DNA from: Salipiger sp. CCB-MM3
Lineage (GTDB): Bacteria; Pseudomonadota; Alphaproteobacteria; Rhodobacterales; Rhodobacteraceae
DNA length: 64,000 bases
Direction: 5' to 3'
NCBI RefSeq assembly: GCF_001687105.1
Contig: NZ_CP014598.1
Span: 186,001-250,000 of the forward strand
Shown here: positions 26,365 to 46,602 of the stretch, piece after piece
How positions within the stretch are numbered: the stretch's first letter is position 1
Layout: each line of letters opens with the position of its first letter
Translations under genes and position numbers: made by a program
The notes under the pieces: generated by a model
Database searches by the model: none
The model's input: only the letters and a program-made list of their open reading frames with translations
What the model was told of the DNA's origin: nothing

Positions 26365-26371
26365 GCGCGGC

Positions 26372-26509: not shown

Positions 26510-27811
26510 TCACTTTCCTTTGGTGGGCTGCTCTGTGGTGGCCCGTTTGAGATAGTCTATCAGGTCGGCGCGGTCATCGCTGCCCGCGATCACCTGCATG
26601 GGCATTTTGGAGCCGGGAATGTAGTGATCCGGCCCCTGATCGAACAGCGCGTCGATCGTGGTCTCGTCCCAGATGATGCCCGCGCCGTTCAGCGTGTCGG
26701 AGTAGATGTAGCCCGGCACCGTGCCCGCGGGTCGGCCAAAGACACCGTGCAGCGTCGGCCCTGCCTTGCGCGAGGGGCCGGGGGTTGTGGCGTGGCAGAT
26801 CGAACATTTGCGCATGAACTGCCGCTCGCCATTGGGCATGGTCTCGGCATCGCGCAGGAAGCTGCGCGCGCCGGAGATGCCGGGCTCGAATGCATCAAGC
26901 ATCTCGACCGGCCACGCATAGGCAACATCGTCGAGCCCGCCAGCGTGGATCACCGTGCCATCGGTCGAGAAGGCCAGCGCCCAGACCGGCCCTTGACGGG
27001 TGGCGCGGAAGTCGCGGGTGATCTGCCAGCTCTGCGTGTCGACGATCATGATGAAGCCTTCGCCGTCGCCCACCGCCAACTGATGCGTGGCGGGGTGGTG
27101 GGCCATCGACAGGATGGGCCGCCGCTCGAGCGTGAGATCGGCGATCTGCGCGCCGGTCTCGAGGTCCAGCACACGCGTGCCGCCATCCACCGCGCCATAG
27201 GCGATCCAGTCGGGGCCGAGGGTGATACGGTTGATGCCAAAGCCGTGCTGCACCATCGGCACAGGGGCGCCGCCCTCCTGGGCGTAGCGTAGCAGCGCGC
27301 CGCTCATGGTTCCGGCGTAGAGCGTTCCGTCCGGGCCAAAGGCAAGCGCGTTGACCCCGGCGCCCGGCGCGGGCAGGGCGCTGCCCTCGCCGCCGGTCAG
27401 AGGCCAGAGGCGGATCGTGCCGTCCCAGCTGCCGCTGGCGAGCGTTTGCCCATCGGGCGAGACCGCAAGCGCCGCGACCTTGCCCTGATGATGGCCCAGC
27501 ACACGCGGCGTCTCGCCCCAGACCCGCACGGCGAAATCATCGCCGCCCGAGACCAGTGTGCCGCCGGGGCCATAGGTCAGCGCTGTCACCGCCGCCTCAT
27601 GCCCTTCGAGCCAGCTCGGAACGCCGTCCTCCCAGAGCCCGACGGAATTGTCGAAACTGCCGGTTGCCAATTGCCCCTCGGGAGAGACGGCAATCGCCAT
27701 GATCGGCCCACCGTGACCCTTTAAGGTGCTGAACTCGGGAACGCTTTCGCCCTGCGCCGCCAGCGGGGCGGCACAGAGCGTCAGCACAAAGGCGAAGGCC
27801 AGCCGGCCCAT
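26510..27811 (-). CDS. WD40 beta-propeller fused to cytochrome c
   Basis: A 433-residue exported protein with a signal peptide ending in PLAAQG (about residue 21). Residues 25-315 hold about seven WD40-type repeats (for example LASGSWDGTIRLW, LVSGGDDFAVRVW). From about 325 there is a class I cytochrome c with CSICH (C336, C339, H340) and a probable Met ligand in PGSKMPMQ. It lies 4 nt after the cytochrome b subunit of formate dehydrogenase, so it may carry electrons from or to that complex in the periplasm, or scaffold it. No enzymatic motif is seen in the propeller. The role is inference from context. Confidence 0.85.
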   Translation of the reverse strand: MGRLAFAFVLTLCAAPLAAQGESVPEFSTLKGHGGPIMAIAVSPEGQLATGSFDNSVGLWEDGVPSWLEGHEAAVTALTYGPGGTLVSGGDDFAVRVWGETPRVLGHHQGKVAALAVSPDGQTLASGSWDGTIRLWPLTGGEGSALPAPGAGVNALAFGPDGTLYAGTMSGALLRYAQEGGAPVPMVQHGFGINRITLGPDWIAYGAVDGGTRVLDLETGAQIADLTLERRPILSMAHHPATHQLAVGDGEGFIMIVDTQSWQITRDFRATRQGPVWALAFSTDGTVIHAGGLDDVAYAWPVEMLDAFEPGISGARSFLRDAETMPNGERQFMRKCSICHATTPGPSRKAGPTLHGVFGRPAGTVPGYIYSDTLNGAGIIWDETTIDALFDQGPDHYIPGSKMPMQVIAGSDDRADLIDYLKRATTEQPTKGK

Positions 27812-27815
27812 GGGC

Positions 27816-29045
27816 TCACTCCGCCGGAGTGGCCGAATTGCCGGCGGCTTTGCGGGCCTCGGCGGCTTCGCGTTCCTTCACCTTGTCGTACCAGATCGAG
27901 TGGTGTTGATGCGCCCAGTTCTCATCGACCTGACCGGAGCCCATGGCGTCATAGGCGCCTTCCATGCCGATCGTGCCGATGTAGATGTGGCCGATAATGA
28001 CCGCCATCAGCAGGAAGGCGACGATGGCGTGCCAAAGCTGCGCGAACTGCATCTCTTCCTGCGGGGCGAGGGCCACCGGGAAGCTCTCCATGCCGATCCA
28101 TCCCGGAACGCCCCAGTCGTTGAGGATCGCGAAGGTCTTGTCAAAGAGCGGCAGATCGAAGGGGAAGAGCAGCGACAGGCCCGAGACCGACACCGAGGCG
28201 CCGAGCAGGATGACGCTCCAGAAGATGATCTTCTGACCGGCGTTGAACTTCTTGGCGGGCGGGTGCTTGTTGCCGATGATGCCACCGGCCTGCGCGAACC
28301 AGGTGATGTCGGTGCGGTCGGGCAGGTTGTGCCAGATCCACATGACGAAAACCATGATCAGCGCCAGCATGAAGGCCCAGCTGACGTTGTTGTGGATCAG
28401 CTTGGAGTAATGCAGCAGCACCGAGTTGAAATCATGCCCCATGAGCGGGATCAGATACTTGCGCCCGAAAAGGGTGAACAGCCCGGTGAACCCCAGCAGC
28501 AGGAACGAGCCCGCCAGCGTCCAATGCGCAAAGCGTTCGATCCACTTGAAACGCTGCACGGTCTTGCCGGTCTTGCCGCCGTCGATCTTCACCCGGCCAC
28601 GCAGCAGGAAGAACACCGCAAGGATGGCGATTGTGCCGAGCAGCAGCCAGCCGCCATAGGTCCGCAGCGGGCCTTCCCGGAAGTCGAGCCACCACATGCC
28701 GCCGTCTTGGATCAGCACCTTGCCGTTGGGATTGAGGGTCGAGGCGCGCACGTCGGCCTCATTGTAGCGCAGGGCGCGCCACAGATCGGGGTCCGAGGCG
28801 CCGCCGAGCGGACCCATGCCCGGCACGTTGTTGGCGTCGCCGCCGATGTTGTCGCGGCGGAAGCTGTCATCGATCTCGATGCCCGCTTGCCGGCGCATGA
28901 TGTCCTCGAGCGTCTGCGCCCCGCCTGTGGCGGAACGGTCGGGCTCGGGTGGCAGCAAAACAGCGTCCTGAGCCGCGGCGCCCAACGGGGCGGCGACCAT
29001 CAGGACCAGTGCGAAAAGGGCCAGCAATTGGCGCAGCATGGTCAT
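27816..29045 (-). CDS. fdoI: Formate dehydrogenase gamma subunit, cytochrome b
   Basis: A 409-residue membrane protein, longer than enteric FdnI because of an N-terminal signal peptide and a roughly 100-residue periplasmic extension before the helices. Four or five membrane spans follow (about 133-150, 180-200, 218-240, 277-297, 342-362) with conserved histidines (RFAHWTLAG, LLHYSKLIHN, WHAIVAFLLM, GHIYIGT) for two b haems. It takes electrons from the ferredoxin-like beta subunit and reduces quinone. A 20-bp perfect palindrome separates it from fdoH. Confidence 0.93.
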   Translation of the reverse strand: MTMLRQLLALFALVLMVAAPLGAAAQDAVLLPPEPDRSATGGAQTLEDIMRRQAGIEIDDSFRRDNIGGDANNVPGMGPLGGASDPDLWRALRYNEADVRASTLNPNGKVLIQDGGMWWLDFREGPLRTYGGWLLLGTIAILAVFFLLRGRVKIDGGKTGKTVQRFKWIERFAHWTLAGSFLLLGFTGLFTLFGRKYLIPLMGHDFNSVLLHYSKLIHNNVSWAFMLALIMVFVMWIWHNLPDRTDITWFAQAGGIIGNKHPPAKKFNAGQKIIFWSVILLGASVSVSGLSLLFPFDLPLFDKTFAILNDWGVPGWIGMESFPVALAPQEEMQFAQLWHAIVAFLLMAVIIGHIYIGTIGMEGAYDAMGSGQVDENWAHQHHSIWYDKVKEREAAEARKAAGNSATPAE

Positions 29046-29147: not shown

Positions 29148-29741
29148 TCAGTTGGCCTTTTCGTCGTAGGCGGTGCCCCAGCCCCAGGCGCCCGAGCCGA
29201 AGCCACGGGCCACCACGCGCTCGCGGTAGATCGACGACACTTCGTCGCCGTCACCGGCCAGCAGGGCCTTGGTCGAGCACATCTCGGCGCAGATGGGCAG
29301 TTTGCCCTCGGCGATCCGGTTGCGCCCGTACTTCTGGAACTCGGCTGCGGAATTGTTCTCTTCCGGGCCGCCGTTGCAGAAGGTGCACTTGTCCATCTTG
29401 CCGCGCGACCCGAAGTTGCCCGCCTGCGGGTACTGCGGCGCGCCGAAGGGGCACGCGTAGAAGCAGTAGCCGCAGCCGATGCACAGGTCCTTGGAGTGCA
29501 GCACCACACCTTCTTCGGTCTGGTAGAAGCAGTCCACCGGGCAGACGGCCATACAGGGCGCGTCCGAGCAGTGCATACAGGCGACCGAGATCGAGCGTTC
29601 GCCCGGCTGGCCGTCCTGAATGGTCACCACCCGTCGGCGGTTGATGCCCCACGGCACCTCGTGTTCGTTCTTACACGCGGTGACGCAGGCGTTACACTCG
29701 ATGCAGCGTTCGGCATCGCAGAGGAATTTAGCTCGTGCCAT
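29148..29741 (-). CDS. fdoH: Formate dehydrogenase beta subunit, 4Fe-4S electron transfer
   Basis: A 197-residue ferredoxin-like protein with four cysteine clusters: CIECNACVTACKNE near residue 13, CMHCSDAPCMAVCPVD near 55, CIGCGYCFYACPFG near 87, and CTFCNG with CAEMC later. These bind four [4Fe-4S] centres that link the molybdopterin subunit to cytochrome b. There is no membrane-anchor helix at the C terminus, unlike E. coli FdnH. It is therefore likely a soluble periplasmic subunit exported in complex with the Tat-signal-bearing alpha subunit. It lies 12 nt after fdoG. Confidence 0.95.
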   Translation of the reverse strand: MARAKFLCDAERCIECNACVTACKNEHEVPWGINRRRVVTIQDGQPGERSISVACMHCSDAPCMAVCPVDCFYQTEEGVVLHSKDLCIGCGYCFYACPFGAPQYPQAGNFGSRGKMDKCTFCNGGPEENNSAAEFQKYGRNRIAEGKLPICAEMCSTKALLAGDGDEVSSIYRERVVARGFGSGAWGWGTAYDEKAN

Positions 29742-29753: not shown

Positions 29754-32732
29754 TTACGCCGGCATGATCTTGCAGAGAGTGGCTTTGGTCTCCTGCATCT
29801 GTGTGACGGAGTCATAGCCATAGGTCTGCGCGGTGTTGGTCGACTCGCCCAGCACGATCGGGTCCGCCCCGTCGGGATACTTCGAGCGCAGGTCTTCACC
29901 CTCGAAATAGCCGCCGAAGTGGAAGGGCATGAAGGCAACGCCTTCGCCCACCCGCGGGGTGACCATGGCCATCACTTTGACCTTGCCGCCCTCCGGGCCT
30001 TCGACCCAGACGTCCGCCCCGTCACGCACACCAAGGTTGTTGGCGTCGCGCGGGTTGATCTCGACGAACATGTTCTGCTGAAGCTCGGCGAGCCACGGGT
30101 TGGACCGGGTCTCGTCGCCGCCACCCTCGTATTCGACCAGACGGCCGGAGGTGAGGATGATCGGATAGTCCTTCGAGAAGTCGTTCTTCTGGATCGAGGC
30201 GTACATGGTCGGCACCCGCCAGAAAGTCTTGTCGTCGTAGGTCGGGTAGTCTTCCACCAGATCGCGCCGGTTGGTGTAGAGCGGCTCGCGGTGCACCGGG
30301 ACCGGATCCGGGAAGGTCCAGACCACGCAGCGTGCCTTGGCGTTGCCGTAGGGCGCGCAGCCATGTTTGATCGCCACGCGCTGGATGCCGCCCGAAAGGT
30401 CGGTCTTCCAGTTCACGCCGCCGATCTTCTCGGCTGCGTCCGACGGGTAGGGCCCGGTCTGCGATTGCTCGCCAAGGTCCGTGTCCGTCTCGGGGCGCTC
30501 GTCGATGTAGCCTGCGACGAATTCGATCATCTTCCGCTCGTAGGGCGTCAGATCGCTGTCCCAGCCGAGATCGATCAGCATCTGCATGGTGAACTCGGGA
30601 TAGCCATCCTCGATCTCGGAACCGACAGTGTAAGAGCCCTCGGCAAGAAGGTTCTCGCCGTTGCGCTCCACGCCGTAGCGGGCACGGAAGGGCAGACCGC
30701 CCTCGGCCACCGGCATCGAGATGTCGTAGAGGTTGGCAGAGCCCGGGTGGTTCATCTCTGGCGTGCCCCAGCACGGCCACGGCATGCCGTAATAGTCGCC
30801 GTCAGCCGGACCACCCAGCGCGCGCAGCGTGGTGCGGTCGAAGGTGTGCTGGTTGGCCATGTGCATCTTGAGACGTTCCGGCGACTGGCCGGTATAGCCC
30901 ACGGTCCACATACCCTTGTTGAACTCGCGCGTCAGATCCTCGATCAGCGGCTCTTCACCGTTCACTTGGATGTTGCGGAACATGCGGTCCGCAAAGCCGA
31001 ACTTGCTGGCGAATTTGTGCAGGATGATGTGATCCGGAAGGCTCTCGAAGAGCGGATCCACAACCTTGTCACGCCACTGGATCGAGCGGTTCGACGCGGT
31101 GACCGAGCCGTAGGTCTCGAACTGCGTCGCGGCCGGCAGCAGATAGGTGTTGTCGGTCCGGTCGTGCAGGATCGCCGAGACGGTGGGATAGGGGTCCACC
31201 ACGACCAGCAGGTCGAGCTTCTCCATCGCCGTCTTCATTTCCTTGAGGCGGGTCTGCGAGTTCGGAGCGTGGCCCCAGAACACCATGGCGCGGGTGTTGT
31301 CGGGCTGTTCGAGGTTTTCCTTCGCCTCGAGCACACCGTCGATCCAGCGGCTGACGGGGATGCCGGTCAGGTTCATCATGGCCTTATCCTTGCCGTCCTT
31401 GCCCTGCATGGTGGCAAAGCGGCCTTTCAGCCAGTCCAGATCCTCTTCCCAGACGCGCGCCCAGTGTGCCCAACTGCCCGCGGTCAGGCCGTAGTAGCCC
31501 GGCAGCGTGTCGGCCAGAACGCCAAGGTCGGTTGCGCCCTGCACGTTGTCGTGGCCGCGGAAGATGTTGGTGCCGCCGCCGGCGGTGCCCATGTTCCCGA
31601 GCGCCAGCTGCAGGATGCAGTAGGCACGGGTGTTGTTGTTGCCGTTGGTGTGCTGCGTGCCACCCATGCACCAGATCACGGTGCCCGGACGGTTGTTGGC
31701 CAGCGTCCGCGCCACGCGCTCGAGCTGGCTGCCCGGCACGCCGGTCACACGCTCGACCTCGTCGGGCGTCCAATTGGCGACCTCGGTGCGGATCTCATCC
31801 ATGCCCCAGACGCGGCTGCGGATGAAGTCTTTGTCTTCCCAGCCGTTCTCGAAGATGTGCCACAGCAGGCCCCAGACCAGCGCCACGTCCGACCCCGGAC
31901 GGAAGCGGACGTATTCGTCCGCATGGGCGGCGGTGCGGGTGAAGCGCGGGTCGCAGACGATCAGCGGCGCGTTGTTCTGCTCTTTCGCCTTCAGCACGTG
32001 CTGCAGCGAAACCGGGTGCGCCTCGGCGGGGTTGCCGCCGATGATGAAGATCGCACGCGACTTGTGGATGTCGTTGTACGAGTTGGTCATGGCGCCGTAG
32101 CCCCATGTGTTCGCAACGCCGGCAACCGTCGTCGAGTGGCAGATACGTGCCTGGTGATCGACGTTGTTGGTGCCCCAATAGGCGGCGAACTTGCGGAACA
32201 GATAGGCCTGTTCGTTGCTGTGCTTGGCCGAGCCGAGCCAGTAGACCGAGTCAGGACCCGAGCTGTCGCGGATGTCCATCATCTGGTCGCCGATCTCGTT
32301 GATCGCCTGCTCCCACGAGATGCGCTGCCATTCGCCGCCCACCTTCTTCATCGGGTACTTCAGGCGCCGCTCGCCGTGCGCGTGCTCGCGCACCGAGGCG
32401 CCTTTGGCGCAATGCGAGCCGAGGTTGAAGGGGCTGTCCCAGCCGGGCTCTTGCCCGATCCAGACGCCGCCCTGCACCTCTGCCATCACCGTACAGCCGA
32501 CCGAGCAGTGGGTGCAGACCGATTTGACGGTCTTCACGTCGCCCGCGGCCGCCGTGGCGGCGGTGGCTTGGGTCACGGTGCCGCCGGTCGCGGCAACCGC
32601 CGCCAGACCGCCGATGGCCAGACCCGAGCCGCGCAGGAAGGCGCGGCGATCAACCGAGGCATTGGCCGCCTCGGAAAGGATACTTGTCCGCTGGGGGCGT
32701 CGCGCAACCCCGTTGGTCTTTTTCCTCAACAT
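29754..32732 (-). CDS. fdoG: Formate dehydrogenase alpha subunit, periplasmic (Tat), Cys type
   Basis: A 992-residue molybdopterin oxidoreductase. The Tat signal is DRRAFLRGSG with R29-R30. The [4Fe-4S] ligands are C73, C76, C80 and C108 (CTHCSVGC and SHCAKG). The metal ligand is C198 in ARICHSTTVAG, where selenocysteine enzymes have U, and it is followed by the conserved His. The C-terminal dinucleotide-binding domain is complete. It oxidises periplasmic formate to CO2. The metal (W or Mo) is not determined by sequence, but a tungstate importer is 8 kb away. The frame is a single exon-like ORF with no in-frame TGA. Confidence 0.95.
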   Translation of the reverse strand: MLRKKTNGVARRPQRTSILSEAANASVDRRAFLRGSGLAIGGLAAVAATGGTVTQATAATAAAGDVKTVKSVCTHCSVGCTVMAEVQGGVWIGQEPGWDSPFNLGSHCAKGASVREHAHGERRLKYPMKKVGGEWQRISWEQAINEIGDQMMDIRDSSGPDSVYWLGSAKHSNEQAYLFRKFAAYWGTNNVDHQARICHSTTVAGVANTWGYGAMTNSYNDIHKSRAIFIIGGNPAEAHPVSLQHVLKAKEQNNAPLIVCDPRFTRTAAHADEYVRFRPGSDVALVWGLLWHIFENGWEDKDFIRSRVWGMDEIRTEVANWTPDEVERVTGVPGSQLERVARTLANNRPGTVIWCMGGTQHTNGNNNTRAYCILQLALGNMGTAGGGTNIFRGHDNVQGATDLGVLADTLPGYYGLTAGSWAHWARVWEEDLDWLKGRFATMQGKDGKDKAMMNLTGIPVSRWIDGVLEAKENLEQPDNTRAMVFWGHAPNSQTRLKEMKTAMEKLDLLVVVDPYPTVSAILHDRTDNTYLLPAATQFETYGSVTASNRSIQWRDKVVDPLFESLPDHIILHKFASKFGFADRMFRNIQVNGEEPLIEDLTREFNKGMWTVGYTGQSPERLKMHMANQHTFDRTTLRALGGPADGDYYGMPWPCWGTPEMNHPGSANLYDISMPVAEGGLPFRARYGVERNGENLLAEGSYTVGSEIEDGYPEFTMQMLIDLGWDSDLTPYERKMIEFVAGYIDERPETDTDLGEQSQTGPYPSDAAEKIGGVNWKTDLSGGIQRVAIKHGCAPYGNAKARCVVWTFPDPVPVHREPLYTNRRDLVEDYPTYDDKTFWRVPTMYASIQKNDFSKDYPIILTSGRLVEYEGGGDETRSNPWLAELQQNMFVEINPRDANNLGVRDGADVWVEGPEGGKVKVMAMVTPRVGEGVAFMPFHFGGYFEGEDLRSKYPDGADPIVLGESTNTAQTYGYDSVTQMQETKATLCKIMPA

Positions 32733-32854: not shown

Positions 32855-33049
32855 TCAGAACCGGGCGGCGGCGTAATAGGCGCGGGTGTGCGCGGTATCC
32901 TGCAGCTTGTTCGACTGCAGATCGGGCTCGGCGGCCTCGGCCTCGGTCCCGTTGGTGGTGGCCACGGCGACGGCCGCAAGCGGCGCGGCGGTCGAAGCCA
33001 GCTTCAGGAAATCGCGGCGGCTGCTCGCCTGCTCGTCTTTCCTCTTCAT
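32855..33049 (-). CDS. Small Tat-signal protein of formate dehydrogenase operons
   Basis: A 64-residue protein with the Tat motif SSRRDFLK (R11, R12) and a hydrophobic stretch (LASTAAPLAAVAVA), then a short polar tail ending YYAAARF. It matches the small family described as formate dehydrogenase region Tat target. Its function is unknown; it may help export or assembly of the FDH complex. The ATG at 33047-33049 is chosen over the first in-frame start 18 codons upstream because it is preceded by GAGAGGAGGT-like purines and begins just before the Tat motif. It is transcribed ahead of fdoG. Confidence 0.85.
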   Translation of the reverse strand: MKRKDEQASSRRDFLKLASTAAPLAAVAVATTNGTEAEAAEPDLQSNKLQDTAHTRAYYAAARF

Positions 33050-33099: not shown

Positions 33100-33726
33100 T
33101 CACTCCGCGCTCATCCGGAAGGCTTCTGCCTCAAGCTCCATGAACGCCCGGCCAAGACGGCCAACAGGGGCGTAGAAAACGGAGTTCTTGGCACCTTCGA
33201 GATCCGAAAAGAAATGCCCGGCCCAGGGGCCGATGTGCTTGTTGAAAAAGCTCTTCTGCTGGCCCAGCGTCGCCGGCGTGCCGAAGCGACCGACGATCAT
33301 CGCGCCCATCATTTCCATCAGGCTTGCGATATTGTCCTCGGGCTCAAAGACATTCTCGGCGCGCGCGAGGCCGCGTGCGGTCATGTCCTGCCGCAGCAGC
33401 GCCAGCGGCTTCTCGTTCAGAAAGCCCGTCAGATAGTAGGACGCATAGGGCAGCAATTCGCCGCGCCCGAGCCCGATGAAGAGGCGGTTGTACTCGCTCT
33501 CCACCGCTTTCGGTTTCGACAGGCGCGCGACCTTGGCCAGCGTGGTCACCGCCTCGCCGATCGGGCTCTCGTCTCCGGTCAGCCCGGCGGTCTGGTCGAT
33601 CAACCCCTGATCGGCAGGCCGCGCAAGGATCAGGCCAAGGAAGTTGTAAAGATCGGCGCGAAGACGGTCTTCTTCGGCGATGCGGATGTCGGGGGCAGCG
33701 GTCATTTTAGGGGTGTCCGTCATCAT
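33100..33726 (-). CDS. TorD/DmsD-family molybdoenzyme chaperone
   Basis: A 208-residue all-helical protein with the family motif EYNRLFIGLGRGELLPYASYYLTG, the E(X)3LF(X)4G/P(Y) type, near residue 78. TorD-like proteins bind the Tat signal of a molybdoenzyme and hold it back until the cofactor is inserted. Its place just upstream of the Tat-signal proteins fits a dedicated FdoG chaperone. The first ATG (33724-33726) overlaps the DUF3306 stop by one base; a second ATG follows immediately. Confidence 0.9.
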   Translation of the reverse strand: MMTDTPKMTAAPDIRIAEEDRLRADLYNFLGLILARPADQGLIDQTAGLTGDESPIGEAVTTLAKVARLSKPKAVESEYNRLFIGLGRGELLPYASYYLTGFLNEKPLALLRQDMTARGLARAENVFEPEDNIASLMEMMGAMIVGRFGTPATLGQQKSFFNKHIGPWAGHFFSDLEGAKNSVFYAPVGRLGRAFMELEAEAFRMSAE

Positions 33727-34400
33727 CAGGCCTCGAAGGAAAAGCGCATGCGCCGCGCGTTGGCGGGCAGGGGGCTTTCCTCGGGCTCGGGGTCAATCTG
33801 GGCGGTCTGCACCGCCTGCGGCTCGGCGGGCTGTAGCGGCGGGATCACCGGTTGCGCCTCTACCGTCGGTCCGAGCGTTTCGGGCGCGCGGATCGAGGCG
33901 GTTCCGGCATCGGTGGGGCCCTCATCAGTCAGGCCCGCATCAGCCAAACCTGCGTCGGCCACAGACTGCGGGTCTTCCGCGGCCTCGGCAGGAGCGGCCT
34001 CATCGTCGTCCTTCTGGCCAACGTATTCGAGGTGCGCCAGCAGCCCCTTGCCCACCTGATAGGTGGTCTTGAAGTCGGCAGCGGGCGTCACGGCGGTGAA
34101 GTCGCCATCGTAGTCGTTCAGCCCGTCGAGGCAGGCCAGCACCGGGTTCGAGCGCCACAGCGTGCGCAGCGCGCGGTTCTTCAGGCGCTTGGGCAGCTGC
34201 GATTGCAGGAACTTGCGCACCATCTCGCCATCGGTGATCTCTTCGGGCAGCGGCAGGCCGGCCTCGGCCAAGAGCTCCTCGTCGCTGCGCTCGGCAAGCT
34301 GTGCCTCGGTTTCCGCGCGGCGGGCATCATCCTGCGCCTTTTCCTCGGCGCGGGTCTCGGCCTCGACGGCGGCCTTGCGGCGGGACCAGAAATCTTTCAC
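33726..34400 (-). CDS. DUF3306 protein
   Basis: A 224-residue protein with a charged N-terminal helical region (FWSRRKAAVEAETRAEEKAQ, residues 4-23), a central conserved block (about 60-125; LKNRALRTLWRSNPVLACLDGLNDYDGDFT) and a long low-complexity acidic/proline tail. It is a DUF3306 member, a family found with DUF3305 and Tat-type formate dehydrogenases in proteobacteria. It has no signal peptide or membrane span, so it is probably cytoplasmic and acts in maturation. Its ends overlap both neighbours (DUF3305 by 4 nt, TorD by 1 nt). Confidence 0.82.
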   Translation of the reverse strand: MKDFWSRRKAAVEAETRAEEKAQDDARRAETEAQLAERSDEELLAEAGLPLPEEITDGEMVRKFLQSQLPKRLKNRALRTLWRSNPVLACLDGLNDYDGDFTAVTPAADFKTTYQVGKGLLAHLEYVGQKDDDEAAPAEAAEDPQSVADAGLADAGLTDEGPTDAGTASIRAPETLGPTVEAQPVIPPLQPAEPQAVQTAQIDPEPEESPLPANARRMRFSFEA

Positions 34401-34960
34401 TGCAGCCTCCCTCGCTTCAGGGCGGGCGAGGCGTAGACATCCGCGCTGGTCGAGATGCGCGGATCGCCGATGCCGTCCTGTTTGCCGTCCACCTTTGCAC
34501 GATCCCTGCGACGTTTCACGAACTCTTCTTCTTCATGATAACGCTCGACGAAATCGCCGACCCAAGCGAGCAGCCCGGCGGGCATGGGCACCTTTTCAAC
34601 GATGTCCTCGCCGCTGTCGGAATAGTCCTGCGCCTCGTAGGGCGAGGCGGTGACCAGCACGATTTCGAACGGGTGCTCGCCCAGCGTGGGGCGCATGATC
34701 ACATAGACGCTCGGCTCGCGGGCGGTGATGCCGTGCAGATAGGCTTCGGTCTCGGCGCGGTAGAGTTCCAGCGCCAGCGTTCCGGCGTGATATTCGACCA
34801 CATCCCCCTCACGGCGCAGCTCTCGCCAGTCCGCCGGGCCCGCGCCCGGCAGCACCGCGACGGCGCGCCAAGCCCATTTCGCCCAGCGGGTGACGCCGGG
34901 GGTGCGGCGCAGAACCACGCCGATGGACATGAATTGATCGTTGCTCGGATGACCGGTCAC
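34397..34960 (-). CDS. DUF3305 protein
   Basis: A 187-residue soluble protein of the DUF3305 family (FMSIGVVLRRTPGVTRWAKW, then RELRREGDVVEYHAG and LELYRAETEAYLHG). The start is a GTG at 34958-34960, with GGAGGAAGG 8-9 nt upstream and directly ahead of the conserved region; an ATG 49 codons further up has no conserved sequence and would cross the promoter region. It opens the minus-strand FDH operon, DUF3305-DUF3306-torD-Tat peptide-fdoGHI-WD40/cyt c-small peptide. Function is unknown; it is a presumed FDH maturation factor. Confidence 0.8.
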   Translation of the reverse strand: MTGHPSNDQFMSIGVVLRRTPGVTRWAKWAWRAVAVLPGAGPADWRELRREGDVVEYHAGTLALELYRAETEAYLHGITAREPSVYVIMRPTLGEHPFEIVLVTASPYEAQDYSDSGEDIVEKVPMPAGLLAWVGDFVERYHEEEEFVKRRRDRAKVDGKQDGIGDPRISTSADVYASPALKRGRLQ

Positions 34961-35302
34961 AGTGATATCCTTCCTCCCGCGCTCATTGAAACATGTAGAC
35001 CTCATGGTGAAAGGGCCAATTGGTGCACCGCGGTATTCTGCGGCCTCGACTGGACATTTTGGGTAGTCGGGCAATGGGCAAAAATGAGGCAGGGACGAAA
35101 TGTCCATCCCGAGTTTTTTGCTCTGGAAAAGTGCCGCGGCGCAGCATGCGAATCACCCTGGCCCCCAGCCTAGGGCGCGCTGCGGGATCGGCGGCTTTCC
35201 GCCCGAGGAATTGAGTTGTGGGCACAGGCGAATCGGGTCTAGCTAGCGGTCTCACCGAGCGACGAAAGCCCTAAAGATGCGCCGTCTGCCAGGAAGGAAA
35301 CT
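34961..35302. promoter_or_regulatory. Divergent promoter region of the two formate dehydrogenase accessory operons
   Basis: This 342-bp gap separates the minus-strand DUF3305-fdo operon from the plus-strand polyferredoxin operon and must hold both promoters. I see no strong -24/-12 pair and no clean palindrome, so the binding site of the GAFTGA-less regulator cannot be named. An open minus-strand frame covers part of it but is not conserved-looking. Confidence 0.5.
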
Positions 35303-37246
35303 ATGACCAAGACCTTGATAACATGTGATTGTATGGGCAGTCAGTCCATCGATGCCGAGGCCCTCTCCAAGGCGACGGGATTCGAGGTCACCGCGCCCTG
35401 CAAAGCGCTCTGCACCACCCAGGCGGACCGCGCCGCAAAGGGATTGACGCAGGGGAATGTTGTCCTGTGCTGCACGCAGGAGAGCCGCACCTTCGAGGCA
35501 CTGGCCGAGGAACTGGGGGTCGAGCCTGCGCCGCTTTTGGATCTGCGCGACCGCGCCGGGTGGAGCGCAGACCAAGGCTCCAAAGTGGCCAAAATGTCCG
35601 CCCTCGCCGCCGAGGCCATGCTGCCTGCCGCCCCCGAGAAGACCCTTGATGTAATCTCTGAGGGATTGTGCCTCATCTTGGGGTCTTTTGATGTGGCGAT
35701 TGAGGCCGCCGAACAACTGGCGCCGCATCTTGGTGTGACCGTGCTGCTGGACGAGGCCGACGAGCTTCCCGACACCCGCGCCTATGACGTCGTGACCGGC
35801 AAGCTGCGCAAGGCGCAGGGCGCGCTGGGGCAGTTCCGCGTGACCATCGACGCGCTGCGCCAGATCGAGCCCGAGGGCCGTGCCTTCACGCTGACCGAGC
35901 CGCGCGACGGCGGCATTTCGGAATGCGACGTGATCCTCGACCTGCGCCGCGAGCCGCCGCTGTTTCCGGCGCATGAAAAGCGCGAGGGCTATCTGCGCGC
36001 CGATCCGGGCCGCCCGCAGGCGGTGGCGGTGGCGGTCATGGCCGCCTCGCATCTGGTCGGCACTTTCGAAAAGCCGCTCTACGTGCGCACCGAGCCGCTG
36101 CTCTGCGCCCATTCGCGGGCGGGTCAGACCGGCTGTACCAACTGCCTCGACCTCTGCCCCACCGGCGCGATCTCGCCCGATGGCGAGCATGTGACGATCG
36201 ACCCAATGATCTGCGCCGGCTGCGGCGCCTGTTCCTCGGCCTGTCCGTCGGGTGCGATCAGCTACGACGCGCCACCGGTGGACCTCACCTTCCGCCGGGT
36301 GCAGACGCTGGCGAAGACCTATCTCGAGGCGGGCGGCCATGCGCCGCGCCTGCTGGTGCACGATGCGCATGGCGCCGAGATGATCCGCCTGTCGGCACGC
36401 CACGGCGATGGCCTGCCCGCCGACGTGATCCCGATGGAAATTCGCGCCATCGGCGCCTTCGGCCATGCCGAGACGGTGGCCGCGCTGGCCGCCGGTTTCG
36501 CCTCGGTGACCGTGCTGCCGGGGCCGGGTGCCGATATCCCCGCGCAGTCGGCGCAGGTGGCGCTTTCCGATGCGATCAGCGGCGGCGGCAAGGTCACGCT
36601 GCTGCAAACGCCCGACCCCGACGCCATGTCCGAAGCGCTCTATGCCGAGCAGGCGCCCGCGCCCGTCGCCACGCCGGTGCGCCCCATGGGCACCCGCCGC
36701 CAGATCACCCGGCAGGCCGCCCGCGCCCTGCATCCCGGCGCCGAGACCCTGCCGCTGCCCGAAGGCGCGCCCTATGGCGCGGTGCTGGTCGATCAGGACG
36801 CCTGCACGCTGTGCCTGTCTTGCGTCTCGCTCTGCCCCTCGGGCGCGCTTGGCGACAATCCCGACCTGCCGCAGCTGCGCTTTCAGGAAGACGCCTGCCT
36901 GCAGTGCGGCCTCTGCGCCAACATCTGCCCCGAGGATGCGATCACCCTCGAGCCGCGCCTGCAACTGGGCGACGAGGCGCTGGAACAGCGGGTGATCAAC
37001 GAGGAAGAGCCCTTTGCCTGCATCGAGTGCGGCTCGCTCTTCGGCGTGAAGTCGACCATTGACCGGATCACCGAAAAGCTTCAGTCCCATGCCATGTTCA
37101 GCGGGGACAAGCTGCGGATGATCCAGATGTGTGACGACTGCCGGGTGAATGCGCAGTATCATGCGCAGGACAACCCTTTCGCCGCCGGGGAACGCCCGCG
37201 GCCGCGGACGACCGACGATTATCTCAGCAAGCGGCGCGACCATTGA
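35303..37246 (+). CDS. Large polyferredoxin of the formate dehydrogenase cluster
   Basis: A 647-residue cytosolic iron-sulfur protein. The N terminus has CDC (8-10), then PCKALC and CC, which may bind a further cluster. Four ferredoxin-type motifs follow: GCTNCLDLCPTG near 277, CAGCGACSSACPSG near 304, CTLCLSCVSLCPSG near 500 and CLQCGLCANICPED near 532. Two more CXXC pairs (CIECGS, CDDCRV) are at the C terminus. It is regularly found beside DUF3305/3306 formate dehydrogenases in alphaproteobacteria, but its role is not established. Electron supply for maturation or a link to the cytosolic enzyme are possibilities. First gene of a six-gene plus-strand set. Confidence 0.85.
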   Translation: MTKTLITCDCMGSQSIDAEALSKATGFEVTAPCKALCTTQADRAAKGLTQGNVVLCCTQESRTFEALAEELGVEPAPLLDLRDRAGWSADQGSKVAKMSALAAEAMLPAAPEKTLDVISEGLCLILGSFDVAIEAAEQLAPHLGVTVLLDEADELPDTRAYDVVTGKLRKAQGALGQFRVTIDALRQIEPEGRAFTLTEPRDGGISECDVILDLRREPPLFPAHEKREGYLRADPGRPQAVAVAVMAASHLVGTFEKPLYVRTEPLLCAHSRAGQTGCTNCLDLCPTGAISPDGEHVTIDPMICAGCGACSSACPSGAISYDAPPVDLTFRRVQTLAKTYLEAGGHAPRLLVHDAHGAEMIRLSARHGDGLPADVIPMEIRAIGAFGHAETVAALAAGFASVTVLPGPGADIPAQSAQVALSDAISGGGKVTLLQTPDPDAMSEALYAEQAPAPVATPVRPMGTRRQITRQAARALHPGAETLPLPEGAPYGAVLVDQDACTLCLSCVSLCPSGALGDNPDLPQLRFQEDACLQCGLCANICPEDAITLEPRLQLGDEALEQRVINEEEPFACIECGSLFGVKSTIDRITEKLQSHAMFSGDKLRMIQMCDDCRVNAQYHAQDNPFAAGERPRPRTTDDYLSKRRDH

Positions 37247-37269
37247 GCCGCGACCCAAGGGAGACCCCG

Positions 37270-37461
37270 ATGAGCGACGATTTCAACATGTCCATGCGCA
37301 AGTTCCTCAAGCAGGTGGGCGTCACCTCGCAGCAGGCCATCGAAGAGGCCATGCGCGAGAACGCGACCGCCGGCAAAAGCTACGCGGTGAAGGCCGTGGT
37401 GACGATTGAAGAGCTTGGCCTGACCCATGAGGTCACGGGCGAGATCAAGGGACAGGAGTAA
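37270..37461 (+). CDS. DUF6494-family small protein
   Basis: A 63-residue soluble protein (MSDDFNMSMRKFLKQVGVTS, helical N-terminal half, beta-rich C-terminal half ending GEIKGQE). It appears to be a DUF6494 member, a family of unknown function seen next to Mrp ATPase genes. The ATG at 37270 has AAGGGAGA upstream; a longer in-frame start overlaps the polyferredoxin stop. It ends 3 nt before the mrp-like gene, so the two are almost certainly co-translated. Confidence 0.75.
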   Translation: MSDDFNMSMRKFLKQVGVTSQQAIEEAMRENATAGKSYAVKAVVTIEELGLTHEVTGEIKGQE

Positions 37462-37464
37462 GAC

Positions 37465-38529
37465 TTGTCAGCCAGCAGAGAGACGGTTCAGACCGTCCTG
37501 AAGAGCATTGCCGATCCGGTTGCGGGCGGTGACATCATGTCGAGCGGCGTCGTGCGCGCGCTGAACGTGGACGAGGCGGGCGCGGTGCGTTTCGTCATGG
37601 AAATCCCGCCCAGCCAGAGCACCGCCTACACCAAGATCAAGGAGCAGGCGGAAAGCGCGCTGCGCGCCACCGAGGGTGTCTCGGCGGTGGCCATCGTGAT
37701 GACCGGCCATACCGAGAAGGCGCCGCCGGATCTGAAGATGCGCAAGGCCGAGCCGCAGGGTCCGCAGCCGGTGCCGGGCATCAACCACATCATCGCCATC
37801 GCTTCGGGCAAGGGCGGCGTGGGCAAATCCACCGTCTCGTCGAACCTCGCCTGCGCGCTGGCGCAGCAGGGCCGCCGCGTCGGCCTGCTGGATGCGGATG
37901 TCTACGGGCCGAGCCAGCCGCGGATGCTGGGCGTCTCGGGCCGTCCCGCTTCGCCCGACGGCAAGACCATCCTGCCGCTGCGCAATCACGGTGTGACCAT
38001 GATGTCGATCGGCCTGATGACCAACGAGGATCAGGCGGTGGTCTGGCGCGGGCCGATGCTCATGGGCGCGCTGCAGCAGATGCTGATGCAGGTGCAATGG
38101 GGCGCGCTCGACGTGCTGCTCGTGGACCTGCCGCCGGGCACCGGCGACGTGCAGATGACCCTCAGCCAGAAGGCCAAGGTCGACGGCGCCATCGTCGTCA
38201 GCACGCCGCAGGACGTGGCGCTGCTCGATGCGCGCAAGGGCATCGACATGTTCAAGCAGCTCAACGTGCCAATCCTTGGCATGGTCGAGAACATGAGCAC
38301 GCACATCTGCTCGAACTGCGGCCACGAAGAGCATGTCTTCGGCCATGGCGGTGTCGCGGCAGAGGCGGCGAAACTCGGTGTGCCGCTGCTTGCCGAGGTG
38401 CCGCTCGATCTGCAGATCCGCCTTGCCTCGGATGGCGGCGCGCCGGTGGTGGTCAGCCAACCCGACAGCGCGCAGGCCAAGTCGTTCCACGACATCGCCG
38501 CGGCGCTGGTGGCGCAGGGGGTGGCATGA
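37465..38529 (+). CDS. Mrp/ApbC-family P-loop ATPase, Fe-S cluster carrier
   Basis: A 354-residue protein. The N-terminal MIP18/DUF59-like domain (about 5-90) is followed by a deviant Walker A, GKGGVGKST, near 115 and the Mrp signature VDLPPGTGDVQ. A metal-binding CSNCG, near 277, matches the CXXC that bridges an Fe-S cluster in the dimer. Such proteins carry [4Fe-4S] clusters to target enzymes. The start is a TTG at 37465, since GACAGGAG is well placed and no ATG occurs before the conserved domain. A second, housekeeping Mrp probably exists elsewhere; this copy looks dedicated to the FDH set. Confidence 0.88.
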   Translation: MSASRETVQTVLKSIADPVAGGDIMSSGVVRALNVDEAGAVRFVMEIPPSQSTAYTKIKEQAESALRATEGVSAVAIVMTGHTEKAPPDLKMRKAEPQGPQPVPGINHIIAIASGKGGVGKSTVSSNLACALAQQGRRVGLLDADVYGPSQPRMLGVSGRPASPDGKTILPLRNHGVTMMSIGLMTNEDQAVVWRGPMLMGALQQMLMQVQWGALDVLLVDLPPGTGDVQMTLSQKAKVDGAIVVSTPQDVALLDARKGIDMFKQLNVPILGMVENMSTHICSNCGHEEHVFGHGGVAAEAAKLGVPLLAEVPLDLQIRLASDGGAPVVVSQPDSAQAKSFHDIAAALVAQGVA

Positions 38530-39236
38530 GCACCGCCGAGGATCTGGCCTTCCCGCCCCTGCTGTGGGGCGAGGAGGTCACCACCGATGCCTTCGACCAT
38601 GCCTGCCAACGCGCCCTTCTGGGCTGCGATGCCGGGCTGGTCGCCTATCGGCTCGGCGCGGACGCGCTGCAGGGGGCGCTGGTCTTCGCCCCCGAGGTGC
38701 CGCTGGCGCAGGCCATGGCGATGCTGCCGCTCTGCGGTGTGGGGTTCCAGAACGCGCTTGGCGTGATGGCCCCGCCCGAGGTTGCGGTGCATCTGGATTG
38801 GCACGGCGGCATCCGCGTCAATGGCGCCTCCTGCGGGCGCTTCCGCTGCATGGCCGCCACGCAAGACCCCGCGCAGGTGCCCGACTGGCTGGTCATCGGC
38901 TTCACCCTGCCGCTGATCCCCGCCAGCGATCGCCCCGGCGACACGCCCGACCAGACCTCGCTTTACGCCGAGGGCTGCGCCGAAGTGCAGCCGCCCGCGC
39001 TGCTTGAGGCGTGGGCACGGCATACGCTCAATTGGGTCAACCGCTGGGAAGACGAGGGCAACCGCGCGCTGCATTCCGAATGGCGCGCACTGGCGCAGGA
39101 CATGGGCGAGGAGGTCACGCAAAACGGGCTTTCCGGCACCTTCCTTGGCGTCGACGAGGATTTCGGCATGCTGCTGCGCGACGCCGAGACGACCCATGTG
39201 ATCCCGCTCACCACGCTTCTCGAACCCGCACCATGA
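38526..39236 (+). CDS. Biotin/lipoate ligase-like protein with DUF4444
   Basis: A 236-residue protein whose first 170 residues resemble the BPL/LplA/LipB fold (HLDWHGGIRVNGASCGRFRC near 100-120 matches the catalytic strand region). The C terminus is a DUF4444-like domain (SGTFLGVDEDFGMLLRDAETTHVIPLTTLL). True ligases need a GRGRXG-type loop and a Lys for acyl transfer; I do not see the loop clearly, so activity is uncertain. The ATG at 38526 overlaps the mrp TGA (ATGA). The role in formate metabolism is unknown. Confidence 0.72.
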   Translation: MSTAEDLAFPPLLWGEEVTTDAFDHACQRALLGCDAGLVAYRLGADALQGALVFAPEVPLAQAMAMLPLCGVGFQNALGVMAPPEVAVHLDWHGGIRVNGASCGRFRCMAATQDPAQVPDWLVIGFTLPLIPASDRPGDTPDQTSLYAEGCAEVQPPALLEAWARHTLNWVNRWEDEGNRALHSEWRALAQDMGEEVTQNGLSGTFLGVDEDFGMLLRDAETTHVIPLTTLLEPAP

Positions 39237-39246
39237 AGGTTTTCGC

Positions 39247-39747
39247 ATGAAACTCGCCCGCGCCATCCATTTCGACGAGAGCGACAGCCGCGTCTTCGCC
39301 AGCCCTGCGCGCACCGGCGAATGGTGCCTGTCGGGCGGGTTCGAGTTCTCCAACTGGACCGAGGGCGACCTCACCGGCAAGGCCCGGCAGGCCTTTTCCA
39401 ACGGCTGGCTCGGGCTCGAGACCTTTGGCCGCGTGACCTTCGTGGCCGTCACCGCGCTGGAGCCGGGCGAGCTTGAGGTGCTGACCGACCGTCTGGCCGA
39501 GCATTTCGTCACCTACTACGGCGCGCCTTCGGCCGAGGCCGCGCGCCCCGTGGCCGCCGAGGAACTGGCGCAGATGATCGAGCTCTGCGACGACCACGCG
39601 CCCAACACGCTGCTCACCGTGGCGCGCGAGTTGACCGACTCCGGAGTGCGCGAGAGCTACCGGGTGATCGAGGCCAGCGATGCGGGACTGGAGCAATTCG
39701 CCATCCACGGATCGCTCGACGATCCGCATGAGCCGCATCAGCACTGA
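39247..39747 (+). CDS. DUF6505-family protein
   Basis: A 166-residue soluble protein starting MKLARAIHFDESDSRVFASPARTG, with no signal or membrane segment. I place it in the DUF6505 family, which has no known function and co-occurs with the DUF4444 and Mrp genes. It is 10 nt after the DUF4444 gene. Only three cysteines or fewer are present (one in EWCLSG, one in ELCDDH), so it is unlikely to bind a cluster alone. Its position in the set suggests a maturation or regulatory role. Confidence 0.7.
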   Translation: MKLARAIHFDESDSRVFASPARTGEWCLSGGFEFSNWTEGDLTGKARQAFSNGWLGLETFGRVTFVAVTALEPGELEVLTDRLAEHFVTYYGAPSAEAARPVAAEELAQMIELCDDHAPNTLLTVARELTDSGVRESYRVIEASDAGLEQFAIHGSLDDPHEPHQH

Positions 39748-39783: not shown

Positions 39784-41748
39784 ATGAGACCTCTGACCCG
39801 CCCGATGATTTCCGTCCGTCTGCGCCTGCTGATCCTTGCGCTTGCGCCGCTGGTGGTTCTCATGCCGTTGCTCTTGCTGCTCGGCATGACCCGCTGGACG
39901 GGCGATTACGACGATCTGCTGGCCGCCAACGTGCAGAGCGACCTGCGCATCGCCGAGCAGTATCTGTCGCAGCTGATGACCCGCACCGGCGAGGAGCTTG
40001 GCGGCGTGGCGGGGTCCGTCGCCTTCGCCGAGGCTTTCGAAGACGGCGGCCCGAACCGCGAGTTCCTGCTGGCCAAACGCGCGGAACTGCGGCTCGATTT
40101 CCTCTACTATTTGCCAATGGGCGCGGTGGCACAGGCCTCCGCGCGCTGGCCGGTGATCGCCGAGGCGCAGCGGGGCCGCAGCCGCACCGCCATCGACATT
40201 TTCCCGCCCGAGGACCTGGCCGCGCTGCCGCGCAACCTCGACGCACGCGCCCGCATCGATCTGATCGAGACCGAGGCCGCCGTGCCCACCGACCGGCTGG
40301 TCGAGGATCGGGGCATGGTGGTGCATTCGGCCAGCCCGGTGCGCCTGCCGGGGCACGAGGGGGTGCTGGTGGGGGGCATTTTGCTCAACAGCAACCTTGG
40401 CTTCATCGACGCGATCAACGCGCTGGTCTACCGCAATCCGCTGACCGGCGGCACGCGGCAGGGCACCGCGACGCTGTTCCTCGACGATGTGCGCATCTCG
40501 ACCAACGTGCGCCTCTTCGAGGACGTGCGCGCGCTTGGCACGCGGGTCTCGGCGGTGGTGCGCAACGCGGTGCTGGACGAGGGGCAGACGTGGCTGGCGC
40601 GCGCCTTCGTGGTCAACGATTGGTACATCTCGGGCTATCTGCCGCTCAGCGACAGCTTCGGGAACCGGGTGGGGATGCTCTACGTCGGCTTCCTTGAGGC
40701 GCCCTTCGCCGAGGCGAAGCGCAAGGCTTATCTGTGGATGATGGCCGCCTTTGCCGGGGTGCTGCTGCTATCGGCGCCGGTGTTTCTATGGATGGCCAAG
40801 GGCATTTTCGCGCCGCTCGAAAAGATGACCGCCACCATGCGCAGGGTGGCACGCGGCAACCTCGCGGCGCGCATCGGGCCAGTGGGCCGCGACGAGATCG
40901 GGCAGGTGGCGGCGCATCTCGACGGGCTTCTGGATCAGGTGCAGGACCGCGACCTCAAGCTGCGCGCATGGGCCGAGGAACTGGAAGACCGGGTCGACCG
41001 CCGCACCGCCGAATTGCGCGACGCCAATGCCAAGCTCGAAGACACCTATCGTCAGCTGGTGATGAGCGAGAAACTGGCCTCCATCGGCGAGATCACCGCG
41101 GGCGTCGCCCATGAGATCAACAATCCTATGGCGGTGATCCAGGGCAACGTCGAGGTGATCCGCATGGAGCTTGCAGAGGCCGCCGCGCCGGTCGAGACCG
41201 AGCTGACGCTGATCGAGCGGCAGGTGATGCGCATGCAGGCCATCGTCGGCAAGCTGCTGAAGTTCGCCCGACCCAGTGAATTCTCGGACTGCGGCGAGGG
41301 CGTGGACCTGCGCCCGGTGGTCGAGGACTCGCTGCTGCTGGCGGATCACGCGCTTGGCAAGGGCGCGATCGAAGTGGCAAGCGATCTGCCCTCGCTGCCG
41401 CTGGTGGCCATCGATGCGGGCGAGATGCAGCAGGTGGTGATCAACCTCATCCTCAACGCCGCGCAGGCCATGGGCAGCGAAGGGCAGCTCTCGCTGGCCC
41501 TACGCGAAGAGATGCGGGATGGCGTGGCGGGCGTAGCGCTGGAGGTGCGCGACAGCGGGCCGGGGATCGCCGAAGAGAACCTTGGCGCGCTCTTCGACCC
41601 GTTCTTCACCACGCGCCGCGGCGAGGGCACCGGTCTCGGCCTGTCGATCTCGCAGAGCATCGTGCAGCGCGCAGGCGGGCTGATCACCGCCGCCAATGCC
41701 GAAGGCGGCGGGGCCGTGTTCACCGTGTGGTTGCCCCAGGTGGGCTGA
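39784..41748 (+). CDS. Sensor histidine kinase with cache domain
   Basis: A 654-residue membrane kinase. One helix near 15-36 and another near 318-340 enclose a periplasmic cache-like sensor of about 280 residues. A HAMP domain (about 340-392), coiled coil (about 395-430), HisKA with H443 in GVAHEINNP, and HATPase (NLILNAAQAMG, DSGPGIAEENL, GEGTGLGLSISQSIV) follow. It would sense a periplasmic ligand, perhaps formate or a related carboxylate, and phosphorylate the GAFTGA-less regulator at 24988-26364. No other regulator is adjacent. The pairing is inference from both genes flanking the FDH block. Confidence 0.9.
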   Translation: MRPLTRPMISVRLRLLILALAPLVVLMPLLLLLGMTRWTGDYDDLLAANVQSDLRIAEQYLSQLMTRTGEELGGVAGSVAFAEAFEDGGPNREFLLAKRAELRLDFLYYLPMGAVAQASARWPVIAEAQRGRSRTAIDIFPPEDLAALPRNLDARARIDLIETEAAVPTDRLVEDRGMVVHSASPVRLPGHEGVLVGGILLNSNLGFIDAINALVYRNPLTGGTRQGTATLFLDDVRISTNVRLFEDVRALGTRVSAVVRNAVLDEGQTWLARAFVVNDWYISGYLPLSDSFGNRVGMLYVGFLEAPFAEAKRKAYLWMMAAFAGVLLLSAPVFLWMAKGIFAPLEKMTATMRRVARGNLAARIGPVGRDEIGQVAAHLDGLLDQVQDRDLKLRAWAEELEDRVDRRTAELRDANAKLEDTYRQLVMSEKLASIGEITAGVAHEINNPMAVIQGNVEVIRMELAEAAAPVETELTLIERQVMRMQAIVGKLLKFARPSEFSDCGEGVDLRPVVEDSLLLADHALGKGAIEVASDLPSLPLVAIDAGEMQQVVINLILNAAQAMGSEGQLSLALREEMRDGVAGVALEVRDSGPGIAEENLGALFDPFFTTRRGEGTGLGLSISQSIVQRAGGLITAANAEGGGAVFTVWLPQVG

Positions 41749-44716: not shown

Positions 44717-44719
44717 GGC

Positions 44720-44830
44720 TCATGCCTCCCGATCGCTGTGCTGCGGTTCGGACGCGGCCGCGGCGGACTGAGCGCCACGGCCGCGCTGCTGCGCGTCCCG
44801 GAGAGGGCGGGGGGAGGGAACGCGCATCAT
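44720..44830 (-). CDS. Possible 36-codon ORF between fdsGB and fdsA
   Basis: A small frame starting MMRVPSPRPLRDAQQRGRGA and ending SDREA. Its ATG overlaps the fdsGB stop (ATGA) and its TGA lies 3 nt before the fdsA ATG. That spacing is perfect for translational coupling. However, the peptide is low in complexity, has no recognisable family, and its last codons coincide with the fdsA ribosome site. It may only be a coupling leader or chance. Confidence 0.3.
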   Translation of the reverse strand: MMRVPSPRPLRDAQQRGRGAQSAAAASEPQHSDREA

Positions 44831-46521: not shown

Positions 46522-46602
46522 CGAGTGCCTCCCTTTCACGTCGGTGGGTTGATCGGTTGTGCGGCATCGGATCATTTCAGGTCAATATCGCTATCCCGTC
46601 AG

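Follow-up and report, generated by a model that had tools for sequence, protein, structure and literature searches.

What do five tightly packed genes do beside the operon of an exported formate dehydrogenase? The question is raised by a stretch of Salipiger sp. CCB-MM3 (contig NZ_CP014598.1, positions 186,001 to 250,000; these 64,000 nucleotides are the window), in which genes for a polyferredoxin, a DUF6494 protein, an Mrp-type iron-sulphur (Fe-S) carrier, a protein resembling biotin protein ligase (BPL) and a DUF6505 protein follow one another. We call the neighbouring enzyme formate dehydrogenase 3 (FDH3) because the Alloyangia beta subunit is annotated Fdh3B. In exported formate dehydrogenases the Fe-S clusters and the molybdenum cofactor must be set before export. 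The five genes most likely help to build one membrane formate-oxidising enzyme and include the reworked remains of two different enzymes. The module is very probably an accessory set of FDH3, and we put the probability that it acts in the cytoplasmic assembly of FDH3 before export by twin-arginine translocation (Tat), broadly as described below, at about 0.6. The five genes are:

35303..37246, + strand: polyferredoxin, 647 amino acids (aa), modelled with an HdrA-like N-terminal Cys domain, a shortened remnant of the HdrA domain for flavin adenine dinucleotide (FAD), a 2x[4Fe-4S] ferredoxin, an MvhD-like domain without conserved Cys, a HycF/NuoI-like 2x[4Fe-4S] ferredoxin and a C-terminal Cys4 site
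37270..37461, + strand: DUF6494, 63 aa, N-terminal segment near-invariant (Pfam 99.3 bits, cut-off 24)
37465..38529, + strand: Mrp/ApbC Fe-S carrier, module paralogue, DUF59-type N-domain and NUBPL ATPase (ParA/NUBPL 339.5 bits, cut-off 27.1)
38526..39236, + strand: biotin-ligase-like protein, BPL_LplA_LipB_2 and DUF4444, without biotin loop or catalytic Lys (261.7 bits, cut-off 27; DUF4444 78.1 bits, cut-off 31.6)
39247..39747, + strand: DUF6505, 166 aa (Pfam 272.7 bits, cut-off 23.9)

A preliminary description had placed five genes here in this order, and all five open reading frames (ORFs) are present between 35303 and 39747 with Pfam scores far over the cut-offs. Their packing is as tight as had been described (spacings of 23, 3, -4 and 10 bp), but of several reported start/stop overlaps only one exists, an ATGA shared by the Mrp and ligase-like genes. 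The contig that carries the window is 274 kb long, in a genome of 5.52 Mb. The whole stretch of five genes is found in one piece and in the same gene order on an Alloyangia pacifica plasmid, which is the closest named record that turned up (87.6% DNA identity over 4.4 kb), and in one piece on plasmids of Sulfitobacter and Pseudosulfitobacter (75.9% DNA identity). Because it is kept together on the plasmids of these relatives, the module is not a chance arrangement.

The link of the module to FDH3 is well supported by co-occurrence. Each family was searched for in the same 231 alphaproteobacterial genomes, with thresholds of E <= 1e-40 for the polyferredoxin (1e-30 in a sample of the phylum) and E <= 1e-200 for the catalytic subunit FdhA; DUF6505 was counted over its cut-off. 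The 22 BirA-like module proteins were picked by hand (more than 120 bits, plus G196 with 109.9 bits beside DUF6505), and G072, at 114.7 bits, was excluded because its copy L071 retains the biotin loop and the catalytic lysine. The polyferredoxin was found in 33 of the 231 genomes and the FDH3 accessory family DUF3305 in the identical 33, which is where the FDH3 core was seen; a close FdhA was present in 32 of them and in 0 of the other 198. All 22 carriers of the BirA-like protein, 20 of the 21 carriers of DUF6505 and 24 of the 25 carriers of DUF6352, the last a gene outside the window, fall within the 33, as do 24 of the 36 carriers of DUF6494, the other 12 having no polyferredoxin. Fisher p values range from 1e-16 to 1e-40 and ignore shared ancestry. 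The polyferredoxin thus belongs to FDH3; the BirA-like protein and DUF6505 are linked to FDH3 but optional, and DUF6494 also occurs independently of it. A check of whether the module is common in genomes without formate dehydrogenase therefore left the module's link in place and removed the specificity of DUF6494, which we reject as a protein of formate dehydrogenase only.

Two observations belong to genomes at the margins of this pattern. Of the DUF3305 genomes, the only one that lacks a close FdhA has a polyferredoxin gene with an internal TGA (G107:C3:111115-113064), perhaps in a decaying locus. In a small genome without formate dehydrogenase (L091), DUF6494 follows an ORF that, read from its sequence, resembles an ABC-transporter ATPase, and an ORF of the same cluster lies beside DUF6494 in L093 and L094.

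Neighbourhoods were compared in 60 stretches from the sampled genomes and in 80 named loci chosen by DUF6505 (the best 80 of 542), 23 of which show no FdhA in the DNA covered, several lying on short contigs. The fullest form is Mrp - BirA-like - DUF6505 - DUF6352 - DUF6494 (L047), with the polyferredoxin and the formate dehydrogenase operon beside it or elsewhere. BPL is present in 62 of the named loci and Mrp in 44; polyferredoxin, DUF3305 and FdhA were each seen in 57. DUF6494 (29 loci) and DUF6352 (22 loci) are less frequent. Taking adjacency as same strand and less than 300 bp, BPL and DUF6505 adjoin in 60 of the 62 named loci that have both (16/17 in the sampled-genome stretches), Mrp and BPL in 40 of 44 (6/7), and DUF6494 and Mrp in 26 of 26 (4/6). 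Judged by record titles, loci of Rhodobacterales mostly have Mrp and no DUF6352 (an exception being L165, titled Roseovarius) and those of Hyphomicrobiales mostly show the reverse; the two occur together in four named loci (L146, L166, L171, L195). The module adjoins FDH3 on annotated plasmids of Sinorhizobium, Bradyrhizobium, Alloyangia and Sagittula, with DUF6352 present and Mrp absent on the first two. DUF6352 was not found in the window's genome, and it is a further FDH3-linked family, present in 18 of the 60 sampled-genome stretches (e.g. L056:9326-10366, - strand).

In the phylum sample the polyferredoxin was found in 55 of 299 genomes, and loci were taken for 20 of the 28 matches outside the class. 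Seventeen of these, chosen by polyferredoxin (L233-L249), have FdhA, DUF3305 and a TorD-like protein in 16 cases each; the N-terminal Cys domain is missing from nine of the 17 polyferredoxins, and Mrp adjoins DUF3305 in four (L238-L241). The other three (L250-L252), from the single family f165, have the order polyferredoxin-Mrp-BPL-DUF6505. The conserved core is the polyferredoxin with DUF3305, DUF3306 and a TorD-like chaperone. The five genes first described are thus all present without being the complete set, since DUF3305, DUF3306 and the TorD-like chaperone belong to the core and many relatives add DUF6352. In L040 (9801-10571, - strand) and L041 (9946-10701, - strand) an antisense gene with CxxCH, a weak cytochrome c match under its cut-off, lies between the polyferredoxin and DUF6494 genes; the window has no room for it.

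The same data could be read as two things side by side, the polyferredoxin with DUF3305, DUF3306 and TorD being the FDH3 assembly core and Mrp-BPL-DUF6505-DUF6494 serving a broader Fe-S or molybdenum-cofactor function and often being parked here. This would fit the out-of-class loci, which have the core without BPL and DUF6505 and show both only in the three f165 loci among 20, as well as G199 and G116, where BPL-DUF6505 is on a contig apart from FDH3. It would also fit a DUF6505 gene that stands alone next to a MoaA-type gene in L128 (FDH3 status judged at the locus only) and the DUF6494 genes of genomes lacking formate dehydrogenase. We nevertheless regard it as unlikely, for the confinement of BPL (22/22), DUF6505 (20/21) and DUF6352 (24/25) to polyferredoxin genomes is not expected of a general function.

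Where the module acts is suggested by the operon itself, which had been described as divergent and indeed runs on the opposite strand, DUF3305 starting near 34930. From 372 bp away its order is DUF3305, DUF3306, TorD-like chaperone, small TAT protein, FdhA, FdhB and FdhC; the list closes with a gene beyond the other end of the module:

34397..34930, - strand: DUF3305, core FDH3 accessory
33726..34400, - strand: DUF3306, core FDH3 accessory
33100..33726, - strand: TorD-like chaperone
32855..33049, - strand: small TAT-signal protein of the formate dehydrogenase region (TIGR02811-like, under its cut-off)
29754..32732, - strand: FdhA, FDH3 catalytic subunit, N-terminal twin-arginine signal (read by eye)
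29148..29741, - strand: FdhB (Fdh3B), Fe-S subunit
27816..29045, - strand: FdhC, membrane subunit
39784..41748, + strand: sCache histidine kinase, 36 bp 3' of DUF6505, perhaps co-transcribed

FdhA starts with a twin-arginine signal, and none of the five module proteins has an N-terminal signal peptide (by eye and by hydropathy scan) or a clear membrane segment, the one borderline stretch, in the polyferredoxin (1.65 at residue 115), being a strand in the predicted model. The mature enzyme should therefore be out of the module's reach, so that the module acts before export or on something else. The earlier suggestion of a maturation or electron-supply system is accordingly narrowed: electron supply to the mature exported enzyme is unlikely, and maturation is the part that we infer from co-occurrence, conserved neighbourhoods and the extra Mrp gene of polyferredoxin carriers in the window's family.

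The polyferredoxin has four ferredoxin-type Cys4 sites, and all 16 Cys of these sites are kept in every relative aligned (54/54). The extra cysteines noted earlier in this four-cluster ferredoxin are also real, consisting of an N-terminal set (C8, C10, C37 and C57, 96% each) and a C-terminal CxxC...CxxC set (100%) in the same alignment. The predicted model of the polyferredoxin aligns with HdrA over residues 1-342 and with MvhD over 344-462, so that the protein resembles a shortened HdrA to which an MvhD-like domain and a HycF/NuoI-like ferredoxin have been fused. The FAD Rossmann motif of HdrA is lost in the window, which has GSFDVA; of the 54 rows 6 have GxGxxA and 0 have GxGxxG. Nor does the MvhD-like part hold any conserved Cys in these rows, where MvhD itself presumably has cluster cysteines. 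Flavin-based bifurcation by the window's polyferredoxin was rejected on the lost flavin motif.

It is conceivable that the polyferredoxin is a cytoplasmic carrier of formate-derived electrons, a relic of the HdrA/MvhD bifurcating complexes that are found with formate dehydrogenase in a methanogen, and that the other genes mature the polyferredoxin rather than the enzyme. We find this doubtful. The resemblance to HdrA and MvhD and the presumed cytoplasmic location would suit such a carrier; the Tat signal of FdhA would place mature enzyme and ferredoxin on opposite sides of the membrane, the FAD motif is missing in the window and GxGxxG in all 54 rows, and the polyferredoxin tracks FDH3.

The ligase-like protein belongs to the BPL fold family by its profile score. 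A relative of solved structure is PDB 3bfm, a 'biotin protein ligase-like protein of unknown function', which matches residues 4-232 (E 7e-99). The GRGRxGR biotin/adenylate loop, which we take to be the motif of biotin ligases, is absent from all 84 module copies, the window's included; in 82 the loop columns hold no letters and in two (L126, L140) unrelated ones. The position that we assume to be the catalytic lysine of biotin ligases is not Lys in 73 of the 84 (Ser in the window); Lys stands there in 11, ten of Ruegeria and L140. Loop and lysine are both present in 15 of 15 proteins taken as BirA, namely L071 and 14 other PF16917 matches of these genomes, which were named from these retained motifs. 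Of the earlier label 'ligase-like' the fold family holds (261.7 bits), and the biotin loop and usually the catalytic lysine do not; the protein looks like a BirA derivative without the biotin loop. An active biotin or lipoate ligase was rejected on the missing loop. That the protein is still a ligase for biotin, lipoate or another acyl adenylate and modifies a formate dehydrogenase accessory protein is very improbable, the family score and the 11 copies with Lys being set against a loop missing in 84/84 and a Lys missing in 73/84. The DUF6505 model is confident for residues 1-140; its fold has no clear relative in PDB or among viral models, which does not show a new fold. Sequence searches of PDB returned nothing reliable for DUF6505, DUF6352 or DUF6494, and no relation between DUF6505 and DUF6352 emerged when their profiles were compared.

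The module Mrp scores over the ApbC equivalog cut-off (350.3 against 348 bits) and has Walker A GKGGVGKS at 115 and CSNC at 282; none of the 63 rows of the Mrp alignment has lost the Walker A or the CxxC motif. The window's own genome has two close Mrp genes. In its family (f1; 17 members tested, including 7 of the 13 listed without polyferredoxin), all ten genomes with polyferredoxin have at least two Mrp genes and six of the seven without have one (G373 has two). In the tree of the 63 rows the window copy belongs to a clade of 12 module copies (98/91), among them that of a Nitratireductor metagenome-assembled genome (L158), apart from the family's housekeeping clade (99/88); three other module copies (L139, L153, L192) are not part of the window copy's clade, and rows G485b and G492b were left unlabelled as module though they share contigs with a polyferredoxin. 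Along well-supported branches the module label must have changed at least four times, by gain or by loss, which suggests that Mrp joined such loci more than once, although some of the changes may be losses. In DUF6494 the N-terminal segment hardly varies over the 19 rows aligned, and the window copy has no Cys.

On the assembly reading, FdhABC would be put together in the cytoplasm with the help of the five-gene set before Tat exports FdhAB. The polyferredoxin may play a part like that of NapF, which according to the accessible part of PMC10609526 is a cytosolic four-cluster protein needed in R. sphaeroides for Fe-S assembly of NapA before Tat export. It would dock on apo-FdhA/FdhB, perhaps through its MvhD-like domain, and give [4Fe-4S] clusters, or electrons for setting clusters and molybdenum cofactor, where no FdhE is found. 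The module Mrp might be an ATP-dependent cluster carrier that charges the polyferredoxin or the apo-enzyme, and DUF6494 a small adaptor that serves Mrp in those loci that have one. Encoded side by side as a rule, the BirA-like protein and DUF6505 could bind the apo-enzyme or the cofactor as a pair, without catalysis. A more daring picture, which we offer tentatively and hold to be rather unlikely, is that FDH3 is built on a platform of decommissioned enzymes. A flavin-less HdrA-MvhD fusion would grip apo-formate dehydrogenase as formate dehydrogenase and Hdr meet in methanogens, a loop-less biotin ligase with DUF6505 would hold the molybdenum cofactor or an apo-subunit, a private Mrp with its DUF6494 adaptor would load clusters, and the whole, with DUF3305, DUF3306 and TorD, would replace FdhE.

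Several points weigh against the assembly reading. The BirA-like protein and DUF6505 are not strictly required, because 11 and 13 of the 33 polyferredoxin genomes, respectively, are without them, and G162 alone of the 33 has FDH3 and none of BPL, DUF6505, DUF6352 and DUF6494. DUF6494 occurs in the 12 genomes without polyferredoxin already mentioned, and in those genomes lacking formate dehydrogenase that were looked at no constant neighbour of it was found. Only some lineages have an Mrp reserved for the module, because 27 of the 33 genomes have a single Mrp (six have two), which in G199 and G116 is the module copy itself. Module genes lie far from FDH3 in G023 and G133 and on a separate contig in G199 and G116. 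On the side of the assembly reading, the FdhE_N profile (PF04216) found FdhE in 0 of the 33 genomes and matches E. coli among 14 control genomes, a result limited by the fact that a diverged FdhE could escape the profile. Against it, the accessible part of PMC4464133 gives FdhD/E in trans in 97% of species with TorD-type formate dehydrogenase operons, against 0/33 for FdhE here, though for a different species set and with FdhD and FdhE counted together. NapF, as far as the accessible text of PMC10609526 goes, has little effect in E. coli, and some nap operons do not contain it. No experimental work on the module turned up in the literature searched, and cluster transfer, docking and binding partners, like the division of labour, are what we infer.

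Some further genes surround the locus. A sigma-54 response regulator (24988-26481, - strand) and the sCache histidine kinase (39784-41748, + strand) lie on either side of the FDH3 region, for which they may form a two-component system; matches to a sigma-54 promoter pattern with at most one mismatch were not enriched (11 against 10.4 expected), and none lies within 34931-35302. Directly beyond FdhC, a WD40-repeat protein with a C-terminal cytochrome c domain (26510-27811, - strand) is a possible periplasmic partner of FDH3; an ORF cluster related to it, one member of which was scanned as WD40, occurs in 11 of 60 related loci and is nearest to FdhC in seven. A second formate dehydrogenase follows directly downstream (41948-46575, - strand), NAD(P)-linked and FdsA/FdsB-like by the annotation of its Alloyangia relative, in which MobB, MobA and FdhD come after it.

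The module bears on how exported formate dehydrogenases get their cofactors where no FdhE is found. If the assembly reading is right, DUF6494, DUF6505 and DUF4444 (and DUF6352 in relatives) would gain a pathway, candidates for the missing helpers would be at hand for making this formate/CO2 enzyme in a foreign host, and the conversion of a biotin ligase into an accessory protein would illustrate clearly how an enzyme can be repurposed. In the literature searched, which leaves most subscription journals outside its coverage, DUF6494, DUF6505, DUF4444, DUF6352, PF20115, PF14563, PF20104 and PF11749 are unmentioned and nothing relevant on 3BFM was found; for Mrp/ApbC together with formate dehydrogenase the matches were two genome papers. 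The accessible parts of PMC5023235 and PMC12445348 hold nothing on the module genes. The sole relevant paper on DUF3305/DUF3306 is PMC4464133; its full text has zero mentions of DUF6494, DUF6505, DUF4444 or Mrp, and it is not among the literature matches for DUF6352.

Compared with known systems, the neighbourhood of the core is shared with the TorD/DmsD-type formate dehydrogenase operons with DUF3305, DUF3306 and 'fer4' genes recorded in PMC4464133, so far as that source was accessible; the core is thus known, and the extended set was not found in the literature searched. With BirA the module protein shares the BPL catalytic-domain family, followed by a C-terminal DUF4444, and it differs in the absent biotin loop and the usually replaced catalytic Lys. 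The module Mrp shares the ApbC model match, Walker A and CxxC with the Mrp/ApbC/NBP35 carriers and differs as a second copy beside FDH3. In the predicted model the N-terminal and ferredoxin parts of the polyferredoxin match the overall fold of methanogen HdrA, of which 329 of 662 residues align, so that about half has no counterpart and the flavin motif is lost in the window; residues 344-462 likewise match the fold of methanogen MvhD, whose cluster cysteines are not conserved there, and both are fused with a HycF/NuoI-like ferredoxin. FdhE, needed by E. coli for its exported formate dehydrogenases according to the part of PMC10609526 available, would share with the module a step in the assembly of such enzymes, and it too has CX2C metal sites, although the module proteins are not FdhE by the FdhE_N profile (0/33 genomes). 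The ferredoxin-like proteins HydN/YsaA support FDH-H activity in E. coli (PMC6004506, accessible part). NapF is cytoplasmic, as is predicted for the polyferredoxin from its lack of an N-terminal signal; like the polyferredoxin it has four Cys4 [4Fe-4S] sites (predicted from sequence to bind clusters in the polyferredoxin) and is tied to one Tat-exported molybdoenzyme. The polyferredoxin is not of the NapF family (40.4 bits to the NapF equivalog model, cut-off 102.2) and is unlike it in its 647 aa, its HdrA/MvhD-like parts and its two further Cys4 sets. NapF, with an effect that differs between species, is the nearest working model for the module.

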